Shown: piece by piece, positions 6,040-10,041 of the stretch
How the letters are laid out: every line of letters begins with the position of its first letter
Position numbering within the stretch: position 1 is the stretch's first letter
DNA from: a virus
IMG/VR virus record: IMGVR_UViG_3300008448_000583
Span: 1-25,092 of that record
DNA: 25,092 bases
Reading direction: 5' to 3' (one strand)
Position numbers and translations under genes: made by a program
Notes under the pieces: generated by a model
The model's database searches: none
The model's input: the letters and a program-made list of their open reading frames with translations, nothing else
Told to the model about the DNA's origin: nothing

Positions 6040-6522
6040 TTATTCTATACCTGTCACAATCTTAACTTCTACAGGTGTGCCATCTGGATTCCCACTGATC
6101 TCATGCTGTGTTGATTCTTTCCACTTGGCACGAGACTTTAACCAGAAGATCATAGCTGTGGTGTTTCCTTCTTTAGCTTGCTTAAACAAAGTCTCTGCTA
6201 CAGAAGCGTTAGCCTCAATACGACCTTTGTCAAGTTCTTCCTTGTAATATTTAGTCAAGGTATCTGCACTAATAGATAGTACTGTGGCGATATCCTCATG
6301 GCGTGTTCCTACTGACGATAACATAAACACTTTATTTCGGGTGTCGCTTGTTGGAAGGTGCGGGGGTCTTCCGCCTTTATCCTTGCTTGTCTCAAGGCTT
6401 TCGGGCTGCTTTATCATGTCAATAGATAGGCTGCTATCCATGCTTATATCATCCGCCTTTAATGCATCGGGCTTTATGTCAATGCTTACTTGAGAATGAT
6501 TCTCGTTATCGTTATCGGTCAT
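6040..6522 (-). CDS. terS: Terminase small subunit
   Basis: A 160-residue DNA-recognition subunit of the packaging terminase. The first 45 residues are Asp/Ser-rich and probably disordered. GGRPPHLPTSDTRNKV (about 50-65) leads into a helix-turn-helix (EDIATVLSISADTLTKYY) and then a helical region with the family pattern ANASVAETLFKQAKEGNTTAMIFWLKSRAKW. I know this arrangement well from phage small terminases; the C-terminus probably binds the large subunit. The start is supported by AGGA nine bases upstream. It is the first gene of the late leftward unit, and a Fur-box-like repeat lies within its first 11 codons. Confidence 0.88.
   Translation of the reverse strand: MTDNDNENHSQVSIDIKPDALKADDISMDSSLSIDMIKQPESLETSKDKGGRPPHLPTSDTRNKVFMLSSVGTRHEDIATVLSISADTLTKYYKEELDKGRIEANASVAETLFKQAKEGNTTAMIFWLKSRAKWKESTQHEISGNPDGTPVEVKIVTGIE
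6492..6516 (-). promoter_or_regulatory. Fur-box-like hexamer array at the terS start
   Basis: Read on the minus strand the bases are GATAAC GATAAC GAGAAT C ATTCTC. This follows the 6-6-6-1-6 hexamer arrangement of the Fur consensus (GATAAT repeats with an inverted ATTATC). It lies just downstream of the leftward promoter elements, where a repressor could block transcription. The same bases encode Asp-Asn-Asp-Asn-Glu-Asn, so a coding coincidence is possible. Function is inference. Confidence 0.4.
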
Positions 6523-6547
6523 TATACTATTATCCTAGTTTTGTCAA
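6521..6547 (-). promoter_or_regulatory. Possible leftward promoter for terS
   Basis: A perfect TTGACA (6547 to 6542) is followed by a 15-base spacer and a perfect TATAAT (6526 to 6521). The spacer is short and the -10 overlaps the terS ATG, so the message would begin inside the gene. A second -10 candidate, GATAAT at 6534-6529, would leave the start codon intact but has only a weak -35. The actual start point cannot be decided from sequence. Confidence 0.4.
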
Positions 6548-6586
6548 TATGTGATAAGTAAATTAAATCACAATTATATATTGACA
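6542..6586. repeat. 45-base interrupted inverted repeat with back-to-back -35 hexamers
   Basis: TGTCAATAT (6542-6550) is the exact reverse complement of ATATTGACA (6578-6586). Nested inside is a second inverted pair, GTGAT (6551-6555) and ATCAC (6567-6571). The outer arms each contain a perfect TTGACA, one facing terS and one facing the rightward small-gene block. The symmetry suggests one regulator controlling both divergent units. Confidence 0.7.
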
Positions 6587-6608
6587 TTGTTTAATATTGT
6601 TTTACTAT
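6581..6608 (+). promoter_or_regulatory. Rightward promoter for the small-gene block
   Basis: TTGACA (6581-6586), a 16-base spacer, then TACTAT (6603-6608). The -35 is perfect and the -10 matches four of six bases. It sits about 45 bases before the first gene of the rightward block. Confidence 0.55.
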
Positions 6609-6653
6609 GATCATGTAAACTTTTATTTACTATTAATTATTGAAAGGGCTATT

Positions 6654-6989
6654 ATGAAATCAATCGTTTTATACACTGATCCTGCTCATGGATGGGCAAA
6701 AGTAAGCTTATCCGAGCTTTTTAACCTTGAAATACACGATAAGATCAGTACATATTCTTATATCCGCAGCAATGAAAAGCACTCTTATGCTTACCTTGAA
6801 GAGGATTGTGACTTGTCACTATACCTAAAGGCTTTAGATGATAAAGGCATTAAGTTTCGAATCATTGAAAAGCATACTGATAAATCAAGTAAGATTAGAT
6901 CATATAAGCGTTATACATTAGGCATTAATTATAAGAATCCTTTTTATAATTCCGATTTACCTATTGAAGTAAAATCTAATTTACTATAA
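6654..6989 (+). CDS. Conserved hypothetical protein (TDPxHGW...LEEDCD type)
   Basis: A 111-residue cytoplasmic protein. The start was chosen at 6654 because GAAAGGGC precedes it; an upstream in-frame ATG at 6597 has no such site and falls in the promoter. The N-terminal VLYTDPAHGWAKVSLSEL, the central SYAYLEEDCDLSLYL and the C-terminal EKHTDKSSKIRSYKRY are motifs I recall from an uncharacterised family in phages and plasmids. No enzyme motif can be named. It is the first and best-conserved gene of the AT-rich block. Confidence 0.8.
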   Translation: MKSIVLYTDPAHGWAKVSLSELFNLEIHDKISTYSYIRSNEKHSYAYLEEDCDLSLYLKALDDKGIKFRIIEKHTDKSSKIRSYKRYTLGINYKNPFYNSDLPIEVKSNLL

Positions 6990-7023
6990 TATCTATTCTT
7001 TTACACTATATAAGGGGCAATAT

Positions 7024-7212
7024 ATGAATCAATTTATCAATGAATTAAAGTATAAAGTACATAAAGCAAGATCTAAAGCTTATATGAATAGATCACAATT
7101 AAACTATGTAATAGGGTTTAATGATCAAGGCATTTATAGCATATGGGCTAATAATGAGCATAAAGCAGCATTAAACTATTTAAACCAATTACAAGGGGCA
7201 ATTCATGAATAA
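7024..7212 (+). CDS. Small unknown protein
   Basis: A 62-residue, Asn/Lys/Gln-rich protein with no recognised family, signal or membrane segment. TAAGGGGC seven bases before the ATG is the block's typical ribosome-binding site. Its end overlaps the next gene by eight bases, which supports both as real. Products of such blocks often act on the host early in infection, but nothing in the sequence shows this. Confidence 0.65.
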   Translation: MNQFINELKYKVHKARSKAYMNRSQLNYVIGFNDQGIYSIWANNEHKAALNYLNQLQGAIHE

Positions 7213-7411
7213 TACAATGCAGGGCTTAAAACAGTATTTAAAGGCTTTAGAAGCTCATGATTGGCATTATTCTTATTCTGATGATCATGCAGCCTATATG
7301 AAAGGCATTAATGAAAAGCATAATTTAAGAAAGCTTGCTATGATTTACGATCATAATTTTCAAATATGGGATAGCATAGCCCCTGATGAATATAAGAAAG
7401 GGGCTTATTAA
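7205..7411 (+). CDS. Small unknown protein
   Basis: A 68-residue protein rich in His, Tyr and Lys, with LKALEAHDWHYSYSDDHAAY in its first half. It has AAGGGGC six bases before the ATG (inside the preceding gene). Its stop shares one base with the next start (TAATG). The aromatic and His-rich N-terminal half looks like a compact folded domain. Family not recognised. Confidence 0.65.
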   Translation: MNNTMQGLKQYLKALEAHDWHYSYSDDHAAYMKGINEKHNLRKLAMIYDHNFQIWDSIAPDEYKKGAY

Positions 7412-7581
7412 TGATCACAATAGATAATATTGACACTATAAACCAATTAAGCTTAAATGATATATGTAATGAATTGGATCGATTAATAACACTTGATTCA
7501 AAACAATTACAAAATTTATATTTAATAGCTGTTTTATCTAATAACATAACCGAAAGGCTAAAAAATGAAACAAAACATTAA
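7411..7581 (+). CDS. Small unknown helical protein
   Basis: A 56-residue, acidic-to-neutral protein beginning MITIDNIDTINQLSLNDIC, with Leu/Ile/Asn repeats suggesting a helical hairpin. It is preceded by AAAGGGGC, starts on the previous gene's stop (TAATG) and overlaps the next gene by 17 bases. This packing in a polycistronic run is the main evidence that it is translated. No family recognised. Confidence 0.6.
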   Translation: MITIDNIDTINQLSLNDICNELDRLITLDSKQLQNLYLIAVLSNNITERLKNETKH

Positions 7582-7750
7582 ATCACTAGCTAAAGCATTA
7601 AATAGCATTGACAGTAAAAAAAGATTTACATTAATCACTATTCCAGAAAATATTGACTATGAGCTCGAATCGGATCTACTGCATGAATATAATGAAATGC
7701 TAGCAAAAGATCATGGCGATTTTTCAAGCTTACATGTAGAGGATCAATAA
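7565..7750 (+). CDS. Small unknown protein
   Basis: A 61-residue protein, Lys-rich at the start and acidic at the end (ending HVEDQ). Its ribosome-binding site, AAAGGC, lies in the preceding gene and is weaker than the block's usual motif. A short hydrophobic strand (RFTLITIPENIDYEL) is flanked by helices. No catalytic motif or known family. Confidence 0.6.
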   Translation: MKQNIKSLAKALNSIDSKKRFTLITIPENIDYELESDLLHEYNEMLAKDHGDFSSLHVEDQ

Positions 7751-7752
7751 TT

Positions 7753-7839
7753 ATGCAAAATCTATTTAAACATTTTATCTATGCTTTTTTAGGCTTTATA
7801 GCCTTATATAGCTGGATTCTATTTATATTTTTACTTTAA
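7753..7839 (+). CDS. 28-residue membrane peptide
   Basis: A 28-codon reading frame for a peptide that is almost all membrane segment: after MQNLFKHF come about 20 hydrophobic residues (YAFLGFIALYSWILFIFLL). AGAGGA lies upstream, and the frame fits exactly between its neighbours (stop at 7837-7839, next start at 7851). Tiny membrane proteins are common in phage early regions, but this one cannot be assigned a role. Confidence 0.5.
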   Translation: MQNLFKHFIYAFLGFIALYSWILFIFLL

Positions 7840-7850
7840 AGGGGCATTAA

Positions 7851-8087
7851 ATGATTAATAATTTTGATTATGGTTACGATGCAGGGCTTAATGCTTTAGA
7901 AGCCTTATCATTAATAAAAGAAAATCCCGATCATGAAACGTTAGCGGGGCTTTTATCGTCAATTATGAATTGCATTTATTATTATGCACCTTCCGAAAAG
8001 GCAGCTAGTGAGCTTGTAAAATTTGCCGTTGATTTTGCAATTGTAGAAAATCAAAAAATCGGTATGTATTTACCAAAAGGGGCTTAA
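7851..8087 (+). CDS. Small unknown helical protein
   Basis: A 78-residue acidic protein, largely helical by composition (Ala, Leu, Glu), with DAGLNALEALSLIKENPDHE in the first half and EKAASELVKFAVDFAIV in the second. A strong AAAGGGGC precedes the start. No membrane segment, signal peptide or known motif. The two amphipathic helical halves might form a small bundle; function unknown. Confidence 0.65.
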   Translation: MINNFDYGYDAGLNALEALSLIKENPDHETLAGLLSSIMNCIYYYAPSEKAASELVKFAVDFAIVENQKIGMYLPKGA

Positions 8088-8088
8088 T

Positions 8089-8274
8089 ATGTATGTAATA
8101 GATTTCAAGGATAAGAAAATAGCCCGTTTTGATAATCAAGGCTTAATGCTATTTATGAATGATCTTTTTAAATATCGGGATCAAGGTTTAATAAACCAGC
8201 GATATTTTCTAGTCAATAATAAAAAACTAGCTAACAAAATAATAAAGCAAGCTTTAGGCGGAAAGCCTATTTAA
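8089..8274 (+). CDS. Small basic unknown protein
   Basis: A 61-residue basic protein beginning MYVIDFKDKKIARFDNQG and ending KQALGGKPI. It starts one base after the previous stop, with AAAAGGGGC inside the upstream gene as its ribosome-binding site. The N-terminal beta-like segment and C-terminal Lys-rich helix are visible, but no family is recognised. Two hairpins follow before the next gene. Confidence 0.6.
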   Translation: MYVIDFKDKKIARFDNQGLMLFMNDLFKYRDQGLINQRYFLVNNKKLANKIIKQALGGKPI

Positions 8275-8283
8275 ATATATCTT

Positions 8284-8325
8284 AAAGCTTATTTTCTTAA
8301 GTAAGCTTTAGGGCTATATTTAGCC
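8284..8325 (+). other. Two consecutive hairpins before the GP88-family gene
   Basis: AAAGCTTA (8284-8291) pairs perfectly with TAAGCTTT (8302-8309). GGCTA (8312-8316) pairs with TAGCC (8321-8325) around a four-base loop. Neither is followed by a convincing run of T, so they look like mRNA structure or weak attenuation rather than true terminators. Confidence 0.4.
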
Positions 8326-8357
8326 TTCACAATTACAATTATAAAAAGGGTTATTTT

Positions 8358-9095
8358 ATGAAATTATTATCTATCAATCACGATACAAAAACTATAAAGG
8401 GGCTTGAAAAGGGTTATCTTACTGGTATCATGTACCTTGCCCCGTATACTTTAGGCGGGAAAAACTTATGCCCTTTTGCTAAAGCTGCAGGATGTACTGA
8501 TGCATGCCTGTATACCGCAGGGCGGGGCATTTTCAATAATGTACAAAAAGCCCGCTTAAATCGTACAAAACTATTTAATACCGATTTAAATGCATTTATG
8601 AATAAATTAGCCCTTGAAATTGACTGTTTACAAAAGACAGCAATTAAAAAGGGTTTAATACCAGTGATAAGGCTTAATGGTACTAGTGACATTGAATGGG
8701 AAAATATACGATTTGACTATGAATTCATACATAACAAAATCCGCAGCGTCACTATTTTTGAATTATTTCCCGAAATCCAGTTTTATGATTACAGCAAAAA
8801 TCCTTATCGTGATAATTTACCTAAAAATTATGATCTTACTTTTTCATATTCAAATAAACCAGAATTCAAAAAATTTAATGATATCGCAATTAAAAAAGGT
8901 TTAAGGCTTTCGGTTGTATTTTCGGATCAAAACTTACCCGCTTATTATTTAAATAGGCAAGTATTAAACGGCGATGAAAGCGATTTGACGTTTTTAAGCC
9001 CTAAAAATACGATTTTAGGCTTATATGCTAAAGGCAAGGCTAAAAAAGAAAATAACGGCTTTATTGTAAAAACGATCCCGATCCTAGCAATATAA
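8358..9095 (+). CDS. GP88-family protein
   Basis: A 245-residue protein that I recognise as the family of mycobacteriophage gene 88 (Pfam 'Gene 88 protein'). Signs are GYLTGIMYLAPYTLGGKN near the start, a Cys cluster at residues 38, 46 and 50 (CPFAKAAGCTDACLYTAGRG), and RLNGTSDIEWE at about 105-115. The Cys arrangement hints at metal binding, but I know of no established biochemical function. A GGG-containing site precedes the ATG. It is the last gene of the rightward AT-rich block, immediately upstream of two terminators. Confidence 0.85.
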   Translation: MKLLSINHDTKTIKGLEKGYLTGIMYLAPYTLGGKNLCPFAKAAGCTDACLYTAGRGIFNNVQKARLNRTKLFNTDLNAFMNKLALEIDCLQKTAIKKGLIPVIRLNGTSDIEWENIRFDYEFIHNKIRSVTIFELFPEIQFYDYSKNPYRDNLPKNYDLTFSYSNKPEFKKFNDIAIKKGLRLSVVFSDQNLPAYYLNRQVLNGDESDLTFLSPKNTILGLYAKGKAKKENNGFIVKTIPILAI

Positions 9096-9114
9096 TCGGA
9101 TTTAAATCAATTTT

Positions 9115-9136
9115 AAGGGGCTTTTTAGCCCCTTTT
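9115..9136 (+). terminator. Terminator after the GP88-family gene
   Basis: AAGGGGCT (9115-9122) pairs perfectly with AGCCCCTT (9127-9134) around a TTTT loop, followed by TT. It lies 20 bases after the stop codon. Because the stem begins with A and ends with T it could act weakly in both directions. Confidence 0.75.
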
Positions 9137-9183
9137 ATGTTTTGTTAAGGGTTTATATTATGAATTAATTATTTAATGCTTAT

Positions 9184-9204
9184 AGCCCTATTATGGGGCT
9201 TTTT
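9184..9204 (+). terminator. Second rightward terminator
   Basis: AGCCC (9184-9188) pairs with GGGCT (9196-9200), followed directly by TTTTT. It backs up the terminator about 50 bases upstream. Confidence 0.6.
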
Positions 9205-9302
9205 AAAATTGTATTTATTTACAAGGGGCATGCTATCGCTTTAAAAACGATTATTTTTAAAAACTTTATAAAGCTTAAGGGGCAAGCCTTGCCTAAATAC
9301 TT

Positions 9303-9321
9303 AATGAGAATGATTCTCATT
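9303..9321. promoter_or_regulatory. Perfect 19-base Fur-box-like palindrome
   Basis: AATGAGAATGATTCTCATT is a perfect inverted repeat about a single central base. It matches the 7-1-7 form of the Fur box (TGAGAAT G ATTCTCA). Its 14-base core TGAGAATGATTCTC also occurs at 6491-6504 in terS. There is no obvious promoter or gene immediately downstream on either strand, so its target is unclear. Confidence 0.5.
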
Positions 9322-9432: not shown

Positions 9433-9606
9433 TTACTTTTTCTTCTTTTTACTCATGCCAGCTTCTGACAAGGCAATCGCAATTCCTTGCTTTGTGTCCT
9501 TGACAATATTGCCGCTTTTGCCTGAATGAAGCTTACCTCGCTTAAATTCACCCATGACTTTAGCTACTTTAGCTAACTTACCTTTTTTAGTTGTAGGTTT
9601 CTTCAT
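9433..9606 (-). CDS. DUF6496-like small basic protein
   Basis: A 57-residue protein with KVMGEFKRGKLHSGKSG (about residues 16-32) followed by KQGIAIALSEAGMSKKKKK to the end. This matches a small family widespread in bacteria and phages that I know as DUF6496, of unknown function. The high Lys content suggests nucleic-acid binding. The ribosome-binding site is weak (GGA), and a strong terminator lies 10 bases upstream of the start, so expression may depend on read-through, for instance by the antiterminator-like protein encoded just before it. Confidence 0.75.
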   Translation of the reverse strand: MKKPTTKKGKLAKVAKVMGEFKRGKLHSGKSGNIVKDTKQGIAIALSEAGMSKKKKK

Positions 9607-9615
9607 ATAATGTCC

Positions 9616-9644
9616 AAAAAAAAGCCCTTTATTTACAAGGGCTT
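9616..9644 (-). terminator. Strong leftward terminator
   Basis: On the minus strand AAGCCCTT (9644 to 9637) pairs perfectly with AAGGGCTT (9629 to 9622), with a seven-base loop and eight T residues after it. It ends the leftward early operon about 70 bases after the Q-like gene, and is a natural candidate for antitermination control. Confidence 0.85.
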
Positions 9645-9714
9645 AAATGTATTACGGAGATGATGGGCGAGACTATCCCAACAGCCGAATTATAGCATAA
9701 AACATATTGATCTG

Positions 9715-10041
9715 TCAAGCGACAATACGCCTAGAAGCCATAGTTAGTAAGTTATCAAAGGCTAGTGCCAACTGGGTCTCATAGTCATCATACTTTGAAG
9801 TCTTGAGGTATCTAGCGTAGATAGCATCTCTCTGGTCTGGCTCAAGGCTTGATATGCAAGCATCTATCGTTCTAACGTTAGTCATATCCATTTCTGAAAC
9901 CATATCCTCAAAAGCATCATTGGTAGACTCGCCACCACTAATCATGCCTAATGACTTACTAGGATATCCTAGTTTGCTACTAGGTGCGTGCATCCATAAA
10001 GCCCAATCATCAAGTATCTGTTTTAATCTATCTGCGTGCAT
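9715..10041 (-). CDS. Q-like antitermination protein (tentative)
   Basis: A 108-residue protein. An N-terminal segment (ILDDWALWMHAPSSKLGYPS) and a C-terminal sigma-region-4-like helical part (NVRTIDACISSLEPDQRDAI, then YARYL) resemble the phage antitermination Q family (Pfam Phage_antitermQ) as I know it. Q proteins load on RNA polymerase at the late promoter and let it pass terminators. It is the last gene of the leftward early operon, directly upstream of a strong terminator, the right place for such a factor. Its ATG directly follows the previous stop, with GAGGAATAG as ribosome-binding site. Another small sigma-like regulator remains possible. Confidence 0.55.
   Translation of the reverse strand: MHADRLKQILDDWALWMHAPSSKLGYPSKSLGMISGGESTNDAFEDMVSEMDMTNVRTIDACISSLEPDQRDAIYARYLKTSKYDDYETQLALAFDNLLTMASRRIVA

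Follow-up and report, generated by a model that had tools for sequence, protein, structure and literature searches.

The window analysed here is the whole stretch of 25,092 bases held as IMG/VR virus record IMGVR_UViG_3300008448_000583, a freshwater phage with a lambdoid-like gene layout, and its subject is a pair of Fur-box-like sites, one inside the small terminase gene terS and the other in a gap between convergent genes. Our reading, which we think rather more probable than its competitors taken together, is that they are putative host-Fur binding sites, selected on the phage DNA and bracketing an exchangeable cassette that lies antisense within the late transcription unit. The existence of both sites is confirmed, and it is quite likely that both are host-Fur sites. 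From their conservation it would seem that the iron repressor of the host is bound, and perhaps soaked up, by these phages. If true, a DNA-only element recruiting that repressor would amount to a protein-free viral reprogramming of host metabolism, and a regulatory-type site would be maintained inside a packaging gene through selection on synonymous codons.

Two Fur-type sites in the window

The initial annotation had reported a 14-base core at two places, a right copy extending to a perfect 19-base palindrome, and a left copy extending on the minus strand into the hexamers GATAAC GATAAC GAGAAT, all of which was borne out. The core TGAGAATGATTCTC occurs on the plus strand at 6491-6504 and 9305-9318, with no other exact copy in the window. 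The right site (9303..9321) is a perfect 19-base pair (bp) palindrome of 9-1-9 type, AATGAGAATGATTCTCATT, positioned in the gap between the convergent gp88-like and DUF6496 genes; the 19-mer pattern AATGANAATNATTNTCATT has this single occurrence in the window and no match in 100 shuffles. The left site (6491..6509, minus strand) reads GATAACGATAACGAGAATCATTCTC, that is GATAAC GAGAAT C ATTCTC. The 14-base word is the longest shared by both ends; in shuffled regions the longest shared word averaged 9.1 bases and never exceeded 13 in 100 trials.

Both sites contain at least three GATAAT-like hexamers in register. Scored against the Fur consensus of E. coli (the host being presumably a member of Methylophilaceae), the left site matches at 16/19 and the right site at 15/19 positions, with the best left sites of relatives reaching 18/19, while 60 Markov simulations gave on average 0.43 matches of at least 15/19 and 0.017 of at least 16/19. 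Loose matching with up to two mismatches was not significant in the window (8 matches versus 4.9 expected). The 19-bp 9-1-9/7-1-7 pattern TGANAATNATTNTCA is matched exactly by the right site; the left one deviates at a single position in the window and is exact in several relatives.

In one respect the initial annotation was mistaken: it had put the left site at the terS promoter. The terS gene (6040..6522, minus strand; PHROG 309) starts with the codon at 6522-6520, and the site is coding, falling within codons 5-11, where GATAAC GATAAC GAGAAT forms Asp-Asn/Glu-Asn codons. The only promoter match beside it, at 6557-6529, reaches 9/12, and matches of this kind are at chance level (21 found versus 20.5 expected from shuffles).

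Conservation of the sites in related phages

Relatives were gathered with terL (74 loci), gp88 (18 and 32 loci) and the gene for the 289-amino-acid protein c26 (19 loci), all queries being free of the sites. Duplicate contigs (L080, L082, L083, L086, L094, L147 and L155) were removed before counting, contigs stopping short of a site were left out of the counts, and L091, whose right end becomes bacterial-looking sequence, was excluded from the right-site count. Site-bearing phages are referred to as class A, including subclass A', in which the unrelated c26 stands instead of the gp88-like protein, and site-less relatives with the same backbone and another cassette as class B.

We found the right site in 25 of the 25 IMG/VR family contigs that have a gp88 or c26 cassette and reach its right end, 23 of them without mismatch to TGANAATNATTNTCA and two (L022 and L380) with one mismatch each. 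The loss of the palindrome in close relatives, named in the initial annotation as the observation that would speak against Fur, was thus not seen among cassette-bearing phages. Conservation follows the site with sharp edges: mean pairwise identity is 0.95 inside the 19 bp and 0.50 and 0.46 in the adjoining 20 bp, as determined for 24 of the 25 contigs (L077, near-identical to the window, was omitted) in an alignment anchored on the site. The only free positions in these 24 sequences are the centre and one position of the GAGAAT/GATAAT hexamer. The right site is kept in two unrelated sequence contexts and in both orientations. In most relatives it follows a conserved stretch downstream of the gp88 or c26 gene; in L085, L088, L186, L362 and L380 it points the other way and overlaps an unrelated gene at its stop codon. 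In the group to which the window belongs, the adjacent small open reading frame (ORF) is shifted by one base with the DNA of the site unchanged (overlap and shift were both judged by eye). The gp88 or c26 genes of other phage families have no site at the corresponding place. In one phage family unrelated to this one, c26 is preceded by a one-mismatch Fur-like site (L389:5442-5460 and L390:566-584).

As for the left site, 23 contigs include the terS start and show independently, by gp88, c26 or orf6654, that they carry the cassette; 21 of these have the site with no more than one mismatch. Among terS-bearing contigs without such evidence, 26 of 30 have no left site, the class B phages being among these 26, and the remaining four (L036, L041, L042 and L055), which do have it, end before the right end of the cassette. 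Conservation at the left site concerns codons, which are frozen although the encoded residues vary. In 20 distinct, mutually related and hence not independent sequences, Glu is written GAG in 13/13 cases, Asp GAT in 7/7 (one position), His CAT in 19/19 and Asn AAT in 19/19, against 39% GAG, 70% GAT, 45% CAT and 52% AAT in the rest of the same terS genes. These class A sequences were chosen by a peptide motif, the unbiased count being the 21 of 23 given above, with L004 and L046 as exceptions. The six-column run of frozen codons at the site is the longest of the gene, the maximum elsewhere being four.

The AT-rich cassette with the gp88-like gene lies antisense between the DUF6496 gene and terS, bracketed by the two sites. 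Its region 6654-9095, located between the late leader and terS, is swapped as a unit among phages of the same backbone. Class A and A' cassettes have one recurrent gene cluster in common, which is also present in class B, and to the right of the cassette both classes have the same backbone genes, as far as these were checked; therefore, none of the examined phage genes tracks the sites. A Fur gene is absent from the window. With no examined gene peculiar to the site-bearing phages, the sites are most simply read by a host protein, probably host Fur.

The presumed host, its Fur sites and a possible function

By terminase and portal the window is closest to a Manatee Spring phage (terL 98%, portal 93%), while the nearest phage with a known host is the Methylophilales phage Venkman (terL 73%, portal 61%). 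This kinship points to a Methylophilaceae bacterium as the host. A search of genome contigs with terL returned no relative, nor was one found in 31 Methylophilaceae genomes, and the host is for this reason a presumed one.

In bacterial genomes the site was found in at least 118 stretches, and three Methylophilaceae or Methylophilales are among the matches listed. The Methylophilaceae sites, sometimes doubled, precede a TonB-dependent receptor gene and a feoA-feoB pair, both with exact copies, as well as a porin/FMN-binding/PepSY operon. Within one Methylophilaceae genus the 15-mer class of the site occurs 71 times, in 27 of 31 genomes, versus 14 times for the reversed control, and Fur (PF01475) is encoded in the three genomes of that genus tested. 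Not all matches are regulatory, as in LSUCC0665 at least two of five looser-pattern matches lie inside open frames. The phage sites and these iron-uptake Fur boxes are identical over 15 to 19 bp, and even the GAGAAT/GATAAT variation is common to both. They differ from them in that one is coding, one lies between convergent genes, and neither stands immediately before a gene start. Iron genes of the probable, Fur-encoding host clade are thus preceded by the same site, and this identity, together with the conservation in relatives, lends good support to the Fur-box interpretation made from the sequence of the window.

In many waters iron is a limiting nutrient, and phages are believed to rely on the iron metabolism of their hosts. 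The function that we propose starts from two observations: each end of the cassette keeps a 19-bp Fur-type site as DNA, and iron-uptake genes of one Methylophilaceae genus are preceded by the same site. As the host would be a member of Methylophilaceae, Fe-Fur would occupy the phage sites. Multiplying phage DNA might then pull Fur off its few chromosomal sites, so that iron uptake and TonB receptors would be derepressed. Taken alone, this titration is a tentative proposal, which we would sooner doubt than assert. Nevertheless, such a Fur sink is the preferred function, followed closely by local iron-dependent regulation, because the sites are not consistently related to promoters and one of them is coding. 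A sink agrees with sites that follow neither promoters nor orientation nor coding context, and among the possibilities raised in the initial annotation titration fits the placement best; a response of packaging genes to iron would be conjectural. The more general picture, in which phages of streamlined freshwater methylotrophs would carry selected Fur decoys, one of them written in packaging-gene codons, and would titrate Fur by replicating DNA without any phage protein, thereby turning on iron uptake and TonB receptors of the host, is a speculation that we hold at a lower level still.

Single Fur boxes on multicopy plasmids are described to titrate Fur from chromosomal operators (PMC3145626), and the likeness to these Fur titration assay (FURTA) plasmids consists in a Fur box on a multicopy replicon that draws off Fur. 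Yet, those are artificial high-copy plasmids, whereas here we deal with a natural phage that has two sites and for which titration is a proposal. The titles and abstract openings covered by a literature search, with subscription papers mostly outside it, included no paper on phage-borne Fur decoys.

Several observations weigh against Fur sites with a selected role. Related class B phages manage without any site: neither the left nor the right one appears on any of 14 class B maps, and a search of five class B records (21-38 kb) gave no match even when one mismatch was allowed. The Venkman genome itself is devoid of a Fur-type site, and the failure to find a terL relative in the 31 Methylophilaceae genomes counts in the same direction. 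The left site is imperfect in the window, with its one mismatch, and has two mismatches in L046; of the 20 distinct relatives, 8 have TCT as the next Ser codon and 12 have TCG, which disrupts the strict palindrome. In L004 a deletion (L004:560-640) removed the terS start together with the left site, and the first gene of the cassette is still 93% identical. Finally, a phage genome with no more than two sites might not suffice for titration of Fur.

Alternative readings and the late region

The strongest competitor is regulation in cis, by which Fe-Fur at both sites would repress or roadblock the leftward late transcript or the expression of the cassette, linking these genes to host iron. The placement of the sites on the path of the late transcript speaks for it, as does the fact that they flank the cassette and travel with it. 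Late genes are transcribed leftward from a proposed late promoter, the consensus sigma-70 sequence TTGACA-18-TATAAT (12/12; 9689..9718, minus strand), which was found in 19 of 20 class A loci, the exception being a truncated contig, and in all 13 class B loci examined. The right site follows this promoter at about 380 bp (356-392 bp across the 19 class A loci that yielded both), and the left one is at the start of terS. The stx1 promoter on Shiga-toxin phages is reportedly regulated by Fur, which would be a precedent for a phage-borne Fur-controlled gene and for host Fur acting on a site in a phage late region. In that system, however, the site is said to be at the promoter of one gene, and no such promoter is seen for the sites of the window. 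No scanned promoter overlaps the right site, the one adjacent to the left site is the chance-level match mentioned above, and the candidate promoter of the cassette, at 6581, is about 70 bp away from the left site; the placement of the sites shows no consistent relation to promoters. Moreover, what flanks the right site, which way it points and how it is read all vary freely. Altogether, we consider local regulation possible and rather doubtful.

The initial annotation had also offered the shared core as the border of an inserted segment, and this holds in part: the sites do mark the two ends of an exchangeable cassette and move together with it, but the switch between class A and class B in terS is deeper in the gene, at about residues 24-41, and not at the site. 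If the sites were recombination borders, with the repeated core serving for exchange and no regulator involved, the identical core at both ends, the swapping of cassettes between backbones and the mosaic flanks to the right of the right site would be accounted for. In class B cassettes, however, no terminal repeat common to the two ends exceeded the shuffled level, and exchange would select neither the GAG/GAT codon pattern nor the match to host iron promoters, which makes this reading improbable.

Packaging sites are often found in or near terS, and a DNA-level signal frozen inside the coding sequence of this gene resembles them. Accordingly, the left site could be a pac-like recognition site of TerS that is repeated as the right site, with the likeness to Fur boxes being convergent. 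Such binding is very unlikely, because class B phages, whose terL (92-99% identical) and TerS are closely related, are without the site, and because L015 has both sites and yet a helix-turn-helix of TerS of class B type. Furthermore, the right site exactly equals the iron-gene sites of the presumed host clade.

A constraint on protein is slightly less credible again. It would follow from the similar peptides that the sites encode, ENxNHSQ in TerS and NENDSHSQ in the right small ORF; the TerS motif NHS[HQ] is conserved in class A, and many right sites can be read by eye in the frame LNEND(S/Y)H. It is at odds with the one-base frame shift in the window's group, the five right sites lying over the stop codon of an unrelated gene, and the left-site codons that stay frozen while residues change. 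The least probable explanation, an RNA hairpin acting as terminator or processing site in the late transcript, has in its favour the palindromic right site, but 7 of 24 right sites (AATGAGAATGATTATCATT) carry an uncompensated change that breaks a base pair, as do host sites such as TGATAATGATTCTCA, and the right site is missing from the terminator scan and has no Rfam match.

The cassette bracketed by the putative Fur sites consists of small genes (6654..8274, plus strand) of unknown function, antisense to the late genes, followed by its last large gene, gp88-like (8358..9095, plus strand; PF17338). Cysteines C38, C46 and C50 of the gp88-like protein are invariant in 14 relatives, and its AlphaFold model is poor, with a mean predicted local distance difference test (pLDDT) score of 45.6. 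The conserved, mostly non-coding stretch between gp88 and the right site (9096..9302, plus strand) has terminator-like hairpins, one of them at 9115-9134, and mini-ORFs; it is retained even where c26 replaces gp88 and is absent in the relatives of context R2. In L091 (3760-4888) the phage cassette passes by eye into a bacterial-looking gene, which probably reflects a chimeric assembly. Rfam and tRNA scans over the whole window gave no match. The N-terminus of TerS differs between class A and class B.

The first gene of the leftward late unit encodes DUF6496 (9433..9606, minus strand; PF20106). Directly downstream of the late promoter there is a terminator-like hairpin with a T8 run (9622..9644, minus strand), and next to the promoter we located a gene for a Q-like antiterminator or activator (9715..10041, minus strand), which has a weak match to PHROG 248 and a positional counterpart in MW202481 annotated as 'phage antitermination protein Q'. 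The promoter and the strong terminator (9622-9718, minus strand), with the Q-like gene adjoining, resemble the antitermination switch of lambda, here in a relative of methylophages and pelagiphages.

Among viral contigs at large, the exact palindrome is present in at least 119 versus 2 for a control palindrome of equal composition, thus being at least about 60 times commoner. Its surroundings in other viral contigs, tallied from plus-strand matches with program-made ORFs, do not enter into the conclusions. Several viral contigs have two or three copies, and in L154 three copies occur at a spacing of 30 bp.

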